From assembly GCA_015063605.1 (NCBI GenBank), contig SVTV01000013.1:1-64000 (forward strand): a stretch of 64,000 bases of DNA, written 5' to 3'. This DNA comes from Oscillospiraceae bacterium (GTDB lineage: Bacteria > Bacillota > Clostridia > Oscillospirales > SIG627). The notes under the pieces are model-generated. The model was given only the letters and a program-made list of their open reading frames with translations. It had not been told where the DNA came from and did no database searches. Shown piece by piece: positions 61,052 to 63,312 of the stretch; positions within the stretch are counted from its first letter, which is position 1, and the number at the start of each line of letters is the position of its first letter. Both the position numbers and the translations under genes were made by a program.

Positions 61052-61609
61052 ATGGAATTCCGGTTAGTTTTTACAGCAGTTGTCATTCTTATTATTCTGT
61101 TTCCACATATACGATGGTTTTCAAAACGACTAATTTTGAAAAACAAGATCAAAAAGCTTTGCATAAGGAATAGTTACATAATTTATCCTACTCATAAATT
61201 GTGGTTTCTCGGAAGTAAAAGTTCAAAGAATTGCGATTTTTATATAGAAACAGAAAATCAAATTTTCTCAGTCAAATTATTTGGTGTACTAAGAAGAAAC
61301 TCTTACTTGATTTTCAAAGAAGAGGGCGGCTATTTTATCAGAGGTTTACTCGCTCTTGTTTCACGAGGCTGGGCACATATTTTGACGTTTGAAGGAAAAC
61401 TAAAACAACTCCCCGTGTACAATTTCAAATACAAATATATGAATGAATGGGAAAATAAATCAATACGACAGATTCTTTTAGTAAATCCTGTTCCTATGGA
61501 TTTTCGATATCAAACCAAACACGGATGCGAGATCAATATAAGTGCCGGTGAGTTCATAAAAGGTATGGAAATCAATTCATTATCTAACTTTTTGAAAGTG
61601 CTGAAATAG
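61052..61609 (+). CDS. Hypothetical membrane-anchored protein
   Basis: N-terminal TM LVFTAVVILIILFPHI; RBS AAGGGAGGG. Confidence 0.6.
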   Translation: MEFRLVFTAVVILIILFPHIRWFSKRLILKNKIKKLCIRNSYIIYPTHKLWFLGSKSSKNCDFYIETENQIFSVKLFGVLRRNSYLIFKEEGGYFIRGLLALVSRGWAHILTFEGKLKQLPVYNFKYKYMNEWENKSIRQILLVNPVPMDFRYQTKHGCEINISAGEFIKGMEINSLSNFLKVLK

Positions 61610-61639
61610 AATAAAAATAGAATAAAAATAGAATAAAAA
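61607..61639 (+). repeat. Three tandem copies of 11-bp TAGAATAAAAA
   Basis: Direct reading; first copy contains the stop codon of the 61052 ORF. Confidence 0.85.
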
Positions 61640-61643
61640 ATAA

Positions 61644-61674
61644 TGCTCCTTATATCGTAATGACATAAGGAGCA
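61644..61674. terminator. Bidirectional terminator
   Basis: TGCTCCTTAT...ATAAGGAGCA. Confidence 0.75.
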
Positions 61675-61697
61675 CATTTTTGTGTTATAAATATTAA

Positions 61698-62117
61698 TTA
61701 TGCATCTGCATTTTTGTCAGCAGCTTCAGCATCGGATTCATCTTCAGCTTCACCTGCATCTTCTTCACCTTCAACAACTACTTCTATTTCGCAATCGTTA
61801 TCGGAGAAGAGCTCGTTTTCTTCGCAGCAATCGCAGCAGCATTCGTCTTCACAATCGCAGCAATCGTCGTCGCAGCAGCAATCGCAGTCGCAATCACAAT
61901 CATCGTCGCAGCAGTCACATTCTGCCTTTTCTGCAAGAGAGAGCTGATATTCGGTGTAAAGCAAATATGCGGAAGAAAGACCGCCTATAACACTGAGTCC
62001 TAAAAATGTCTTGGAAAGGCTCTTATTCTTCTTCAAATGTACAAGAAACATTATGAAGCTTATAAAAGACTGTGCAGCAAGTGCTATTCCGATATAAAAT
62101 TTTGTGGTTTTTTTCAT
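61698..62117 (-). CDS. Membrane protein with a Cys/Asp/Glu-only segment and acidic tail
   Basis: Two hydrophobic N-terminal segments then CDCCDDDCDCDCDCCCDDDCCDCEDECCCDCC (17 Cys in 32) and EEDAGEAEDESDAEAADKNADA. Confidence 0.8.
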   Translation of the reverse strand: MKKTTKFYIGIALAAQSFISFIMFLVHLKKNKSLSKTFLGLSVIGGLSSAYLLYTEYQLSLAEKAECDCCDDDCDCDCDCCCDDDCCDCEDECCCDCCEENELFSDNDCEIEVVVEGEEDAGEAEDESDAEAADKNADA

Positions 62118-62144
62118 GGTATTTCTCCTTTAAAATAATTTTAT

Positions 62145-63251
62145 CTATATAGTTTTTGATTTAAGATAAGCATTCATAAATTCATCAAGATCACCATCCA
62201 TGACCTTGTTGATATCGCCGTCTTCACATCCCGTACGATGATCCTTAACAAGCGTATAAGGCATGAAAACGTAAGATCTTATCTGCGCCCCCCATTCGAT
62301 ATTCATCTTGATACCCTTGATATCATCTATCTTTTCAAGGTGCTCACGCTCTTTGATCTCAAGAAGCTTTGATTTCAGCATCTTCATAGCTACTTCACGG
62401 TTCTGAACCTGGCTTCGCTCATTTTGGCATCCTACAACTATACCGGTAGGAATATGAGTTATACGTATAGCGGAGTCTGTTTTATTAACGTGCTGTCCGC
62501 CGGCACCGCTGGCACGGTGAGCTTCGATCTTAAGATCTTCTTCTCTGATCTCAACCGTTATCTCATCGGAAAACTCAGGTGTAACCTCAACCGATGCAAA
62601 AGAAGTATGTCTTCTTCCGGAAGAATCGAAAGGGGAGACACGGACAAGTCTGTGAACACCGGATTCACTCTTGAAATATCCGTAAGCAAACTCTCCTTCA
62701 ACCAAAAATGTTACACTCTTGATACCTGCTTCATCGCCGTCAAGGTAGTCGAGAGTCTTGAATTTATAGCCGCGTCTTTCAGCAAAACGCATATACATGC
62801 GGAAGAGCATCTCTGCCCAATCCTGAGCTTCAGTACCGCCTGCACCGGGGTGAATGGAAACGATCGCATTTCTCTTATCATATTCTCCGGATAAGAGAAG
62901 CATTATTCGCTGCTCCTCGCAAAGCTTCTGAATCTTTTCAACATCAGCTTCAATATCCTTAGCGAGAGATTCATCATCTTCCTCAATAGCCATAGCCAGA
63001 AGCTCATCGGTGGATTCCAAAAGATCGCTTAATTGCATAAAGGAATCATATTTATCCTTTTTGATCTTCAGTTCTCCCAAAACACTCTGAGACTTCTGAG
63101 AATCATTCCAAAAACCGCTTTCCTGGGTTTGAAGCTCAAGAGCATCAATAGCTTCCTTCAATTCGTTTGGCTTGATAGTATTTGCAAGCTCATCCACATC
63201 AACTCTTAAATTTTTTATCGTTTGTTTTAACTGCTCAAGTAATAAGACCAA
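62145..63251 (-). CDS. prfB: Peptide chain release factor 2 (TTG start proposed)
   Basis: HPGAGGTEAQDWAEML (GGQ-domain context), ASGAGGQHVNKTDSAIRITHIPTGI; GGAGG 8 nt upstream of TTG 63251. Confidence 0.94.
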   Translation of the reverse strand: MVLLLEQLKQTIKNLRVDVDELANTIKPNELKEAIDALELQTQESGFWNDSQKSQSVLGELKIKKDKYDSFMQLSDLLESTDELLAMAIEEDDESLAKDIEADVEKIQKLCEEQRIMLLLSGEYDKRNAIVSIHPGAGGTEAQDWAEMLFRMYMRFAERRGYKFKTLDYLDGDEAGIKSVTFLVEGEFAYGYFKSESGVHRLVRVSPFDSSGRRHTSFASVEVTPEFSDEITVEIREEDLKIEAHRASGAGGQHVNKTDSAIRITHIPTGIVVGCQNERSQVQNREVAMKMLKSKLLEIKEREHLEKIDDIKGIKMNIEWGAQIRSYVFMPYTLVKDHRTGCEDGDINKVMDGDLDEFMNAYLKSKTI

Positions 63252-63283
63252 GGAAATATCCTCCAAAAAATTCATCATTCTAT

Positions 63284-63312
63284 ATTATACTATATTTTTT
63301 CGGTTTTGTAAA
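63284..63312 (-). promoter_or_regulatory. prfB promoter
   Basis: Minus strand TTTACA-17-TATAAT. Confidence 0.65.

Follow-up and report, generated by a model that had tools for sequence, protein, structure and literature searches.

A gene adjoining prfB, here called gene X, encodes a small inner-membrane protein of a new, previously undescribed family, which is confined to one bacterial order and whose members are predicted to combine a two-helix anchor with a long, disordered acidic tail. In the protein studied here, this tail includes 32 consecutive residues consisting only of Cys, Asp, and Glu. We propose, with a probability of roughly 0.45, that this tail binds metal through thiolates and carboxylates in the manner of phytochelatins while tethered to the membrane, probably on the cytoplasmic side, and that it was added to an older prfB-linked protein. 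The window, i.e., the whole stretch of DNA that was analyzed, comprises 64,000 nucleotides of contig SVTV01000013.1 from an Oscillospiraceae bacterium; the features of interest are compiled in Table 1.

Re-checking of the open reading frame (ORF) of gene X yielded exactly the coordinates and translation of the original prediction. The gene is preceded by a Shine-Dalgarno sequence, starts 27 nt past the prfB stop codon, and is followed by an intrinsic terminator, while a promoter-like site of the sigma-70 type, scoring 11/12, lies before prfB. Because of these signals and this spacing, prfB and gene X look like a two-gene operon with gene X in second place. Gene X is a real gene, as seen from its ORF signals and from its relatives in other genomes. 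For prfB, a TTG codon at 63251 behind GGAGGA is a likelier start than the listed one at 63278 and fits the relatives better; the listed start lies directly behind the −10 box of the promoter. The prfB of the window can be read without a programmed frameshift. Immediately past the terminator of gene X, an 11-nt unit (AAATAGAATAA) is repeated in tandem (3.3 copies; 61604 to 61639), and a convergent ORF of 185 aa is present at 61052 to 61609, without a Pfam match above the cutoff.

TABLE 1 Positions of gene X, its operon, and its protein segments within the window
Feature	Position	Strand	Basis
Gene X, 139 codons; two-helix membrane protein with acidic Cys-rich tail	61698..62117	-	ORF and translation
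Shine-Dalgarno sequence of gene X, AAGGAG	62125..62130	-	Sequence
Intrinsic terminator 3' of gene X, 14 pairs and T-run	61643..61675	-	
Promoter-like site upstream of prfB, TTTACA-17-TATAAT	63284..63312	-	
prfB (release factor 2), operon gene 1	62145..63278	-	Pfam PCRF and RF-1
First transmembrane helix, ~residues 7-28	62034..62099	-	Hydrophobicity, alignment, AlphaFold2 helix 3-29
Second transmembrane helix, ~residues 37-55	61953..62009	-	Alignment, AlphaFold2 helix 32-67
Block of Cys/Asp/Glu only, residues 67-98	61824..61919	-	Translation
Two imperfect 39-nt direct repeats within block, 77-81% identical	61831..61908	-	In-frame comparison
Acidic/hydrophobic region past block, NDCEIEVVVE	61770..61799	-	Alignments with relatives' [DE][DE][IV]x[CFY]x[FI]

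The two N-terminal hydrophobic segments originally proposed as a membrane anchor were predicted to be helices by alignment and AlphaFold2, and the first also by hydrophobicity; the second AlphaFold2 helix extends beyond the membrane span. AlphaFold2 was run with two sequences (mean pLDDT, 51), and its helix prediction alone was used; in this low-confidence model, the tail of the window protein was predicted to be disordered. The layout is shared across the family: an MKKxxK start, a helix of ∼22 residues, a conserved lysine-rich loop (KKxSLxK; the short KKNKSLSK between both helices of the window protein), a second helix, and then a tail of 39 to 122 residues with 39% Asp plus Glu. Searches and alignment revealed that the core of the window protein is homologous to the family, including an invariant Gln in helix 1 and the Lys-rich loop. 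Two motifs recur in the tails. Most members from the bacterial families f1 (that of the window) and f19 contain [DE][DE][IV]x[CFY]x[FI], with which NDCEIEVVV of the window protein aligns while departing from the strict motif, and tails of the f20 branch carry a C-terminal A[ST]Ex[DE]F. These recurring motifs suggest that part of the tail may meet a partner independently of its Cys residues. A general C-terminal EADF[EQ] tag was rejected, with 6 pattern matches in 147 genomes, 1 of them in the prfB-linked family and none in other small anchored proteins.

Whole-genome searches detected the gene X family in 12 of 58 related genomes, and matches were obtained in 54 of 295 genomes of the window's order. 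The weakest of these (e.g., L057, L058, L061, and L062) had no prfB adjacent and were left out of the member count, which stands at 46 loci, with that of the window included. A sample of the class gave only two weak matches outside the order, and a scan of genome collections for named relatives returned one locus, from the "uncultured Clostridia" MAG Lapin-001. That the protein belongs to no named family, as first noted, was borne out by profile searches, in which no convincing Pfam or NCBIfam model was found for the window protein or its relatives; no solved structure was similar to them by sequence. Between close relatives, dN/dS was ∼0.01 to 0.3 in core and tail (pairs for which dS could be estimated), with the tail of gene X evolving faster than the core. 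Close pairs thus show the signature of purifying selection, indicating that gene X is translated and kept.

The 32-residue block (CDCCDDDCDCDCDCCCDDDCCDCEDECCCDCC) was confirmed with its reported 17 Cys and 15 Asp/Glu residues, the latter being 13 Asp and 2 Glu. One further Cys past the block, at residue 109, brings the tail of the window protein to 18 Cys. Given the residue frequencies in the long ORFs of the window (Cys, 2.0%; Asp, 6.0%; Glu, 6.8%; sum, ∼15%), the probability that 32 consecutive residues are all drawn from these three is ∼3 × 10^−27. Compared in frame, the two repeat copies within the block exhibit 3 synonymous and 3 nonsynonymous codon differences and one inserted TGC, all within C/D/E; of 256 possible nonsynonymous single-base changes, only 30 would stay within this set. 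The block thus grew via duplication of a pre-existing Cys/Asp tail and later diverged with its composition kept. With numbers this small, the pattern hints at selection acting on the block rather than proving it. A recent trinucleotide expansion as the sole cause of the block, a possibility raised with the original prediction, is ruled out by the diverged, imperfect 39-nt repeat with its synonymous and C/D/E-preserving differences.

Conserved Cys-rich tails in orthologs at a dN/dS of <1 had been named beforehand as potential support. The dN/dS of close pairs is low and prfB is present in all 46 loci, but the extreme block itself is not conserved: tails of relatives contain only 0 to 7 Cys, compared to 18 in the window protein, and several orthologs retain gene X without any tail Cys. 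Orthologs lacking the block had been named beforehand as counting against the original reading. Given the orthologs whose tails are free of Cys, metal binding would be an add-on rather than the core function of the family. The Cys share is 4.3% in the tails of relatives, versus 1.5% in the two-helix core and ∼2% in the proteins of the window. Neighboring Cys in relatives' tails are no more than 3 residues apart in 28 of 55 pairs, versus 13.1 in shuffled tails; clustering as high as that observed occurred in 0 of 2,000 shuffles, and the flanking residues are mostly D, C, and E. On a prfB tree, Cys-rich tails recur in separate clades, and tails with at least 4 Cys imply that this state was gained or lost 7 times, with well-supported branches accounting for at least 5 of these changes.

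These data bear directly on a competing explanation, in which the block is a near-neutral elaboration of a tandem-duplicated acidic disordered tail, with function confined to the two helices and the short acidic motif that follows the block. Block size varies widely, relatives occur without the block, a 39-nt repeat is present, and a conserved motif lies outside the block, all as expected from such a history. However, Cys is enriched and clustered in the tails of many relatives, the repeat copies differ only synonymously or within C/D/E (albeit in small numbers), and runs of free Cys are costly and usually avoided. We consider near-neutral growth possible but rather unlikely.

The tail is still most reasonably read as having a metal- or thiol-related role. 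In lineages with Cys clusters, and in that of the window above all, it would act as a membrane-tethered ligand for a soft metal (Zn, Cu(I), Cd, or Fe), which would be bound by the Cys thiolates, and Asp/Glu would contribute charge and additional ligands. Such a tail would represent a genetically encoded counterpart of (Glu-Cys)n metal-binding peptides and, probably facing the reducing cytoplasm, might buffer metal or hand it over at the membrane. A flexible, strongly acidic, thiol-rich, membrane-held tail in a probable anaerobe is most readily explained as a ligand for soft metals. Counting against this reading, the profiled neighbors in the window included neither a metal transporter nor a metal regulator.

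With respect to topology, lysines flank both helices alike, at the N terminus, in the loop, and past helix 2, with family means of 3.8 positive charges ahead of helix 1, 3.4 within the loop, and 2.9 directly past helix 2. This pattern weakly favors both termini being inside the cell; a tail on the outside would also be compatible with it. An outside tail, or one cycling in its oxidation state, could instead serve as a redox or disulfide device that forms crosslinks or detects oxidants at the envelope or on the spore surface. In favor of such a device are the 17 Cys within 32 residues, the spoVA genes located upstream in some members of the window's family, and the positive loop between the helices, which would permit an outside tail. 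Yet Gram-positive bacteria tend to keep Cys out of exported proteins (discussed in PMC4628341), no disulfide-type oxidoreductase adjoins gene X, and the other families checked show no linkage to spoVA, which makes a redox function improbable. A Cys-Asp thioether (ranthipeptide-type) RiPP precursor was rejected, as no radical SAM domain, and thus no such maturase, was found among the neighbors profiled between 53.6 and 64.0 kb.

The constant partner of gene X is prfB, not spoVA. In each of the 46 loci, including that of the window, prfB is adjacent on the same strand, at a distance of ≤232 nt in 45 loci and 596 nt in one, and in 18 genomes from families without gene X, a variety of other genes follow prfB. 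The gene X family is thus an invention confined to this order and fixed beside prfB. In contrast, spoVA is found directly upstream of prfB in 7 of 10 f1 genomes (window included), near but divergent in 1, and is absent from the stretches of the remaining 2, as it is from the stretches examined in all 8 f19/f20 genomes. Of the two associations originally put forward, that with prfB now extends far beyond guilt by association, whereas that with spoVA is confined to part of f1. A spore role via spoVA, which had been thought possible, is thus little supported, and the constant linkage expected of a spoVA operon component was not observed.

The adjacency to prfB in 46 of 46 loci and several bacterial families could also mean that the gene X protein works with RF2 or membrane-bound ribosomes, its acidic tail binding a translation factor and its Cys being incidental or regulatory. 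In five f19 genomes, moreover, the next gene is one that we take to be htpG-like by its start sequence (sequence recognition rather than a profile). On the other hand, operon neighbors can be inherited passively, and no motif ties the tail to RF2 or the ribosome; we judge a role of this kind to be quite unlikely.

Within the window's bacterial family, 12 of 22 genomes (G002, G004, G008 to G011, and G015 to G020) had neither gene X nor a prfB match at E ≤ 1e-80, and seven of those 12 contained one PCRF-domain gene, which was prfA-like. UGA recoding with loss of RF2 was rejected for these genomes: rpoB matches were free of in-frame TGA, and TGA is a normal stop codon in those sampled, just as it is where prfB is present. 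The absence of prfB is likelier to reflect missing or unassembled sequence. In G017:C29, a PCRF-domain gene and rpoB each occur twice at mirrored positions with equal scores, which looks like a palindromic assembly artifact.

Cys/acid tails were also found on unrelated one-helix anchors of the same order (L154, L155, L057, and L058). A search for the pattern C[DE]CC[DE][DE]C in 394 genomes of the order produced two matches, L153 and L152. The L153 match is the one-helix protein of L057, and that in L152 is a one-helix protein adjoining a biotin-ligase-like gene, with a Cys/Glu tail ending in ASEADFEG; the only homolog found for it, from that same genus, has likewise retained a Cys/acid tail with EADFEG at its end. 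Cys/acid tails on unrelated small membrane anchors have thus arisen more than once. In both L152 (1315 to 1677) and L155 (651 to 923), a one-helix protein with a Cys/Glu/Asp-rich tail is encoded beside a biotin-ligase-like gene, and its conserved EADFEG C terminus resembles the motif with which tails end in the f20 branch of the prfB-linked proteins. The one-helix membrane proteins of L057 (1444 to 1830) and L058 (1471 to 1776) have Cys/Asp clusters directly past the helix and weak similarity, below cutoffs, to YtxH and FeoB-associated profiles.

One might speculate that the tethered C/D/E polymer is a metal sink that arose repeatedly on small anchors within one clostridial order, here in a prfB operon, a generalization that we put forward only tentatively and with some doubt. 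There is a modest chance that the window protein, as the extreme member of the new prfB-linked family, represents a distinct class of tethered metal-binding polymer. If the proposed metal-binding function is true, metal handling at the membrane would be co-expressed with translation termination, and the tail would provide a ready-made minimal peptide for soft-metal capture, with the same chemistry originating repeatedly. The prfB-locked family, spanning several bacterial families, offers a tangible starting point for explaining why release factor 2 has this gene as a partner, and an acidic, predicted disordered tail on a bacterial anchor can evidently reach 53% Cys over 32 residues.

Known systems resemble the window protein in part. 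In Lactococcus, membrane proteins bind Zn through a cluster of just four Cys (PMC4628341). Llmg_0524 and Llmg_0526 of Lactococcus lactis are likewise functionally unassigned Gram-positive membrane proteins from small operons with clustered Cys in their soluble portion; their Zn binding has been shown (PMC4628341), and their four Cys form a CX2CX10CX2C motif in the N-terminal part in place of a C/D/E-only polymer. Cys-rich small membrane proteins also accompany FeoB in Firmicutes (PMC8749426). These FeoB-associated proteins (PF12669), common in Firmicutes, share a short anchor and a Cys-rich tail as putative metal ligand (PMC8749426), but have far fewer Cys and are encoded beside feoB rather than prfB; PF12669 was matched neither by the window protein (E up to 1) nor by 12 members (E up to 0.1). 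Bacterial metallothioneins of the SmtA type are similarly small and dense in Cys and, by analogy, soft-metal ligands, but SmtA has no membrane anchor, and the block of the window protein consists of Cys/Asp/Glu only, without His. No metallothionein profile was matched by the window protein, which gave only nonsignificant, unrelated Pfam/NCBIfam matches. Phytochelatins are peptides of alternating acidic residues and Cys that bind Cd and Zn. Together with the synthetic (Glu-Cys)n peptide EC20, they share with the window tail the acidic/Cys alternation, the unstructured state (predicted for the window tail), and, putatively, the role of soft-metal ligand; however, phytochelatins are gamma-linked and made enzymatically, EC20 is man-made, and neither is membrane anchored in nature, whereas the window tail is genetically encoded.
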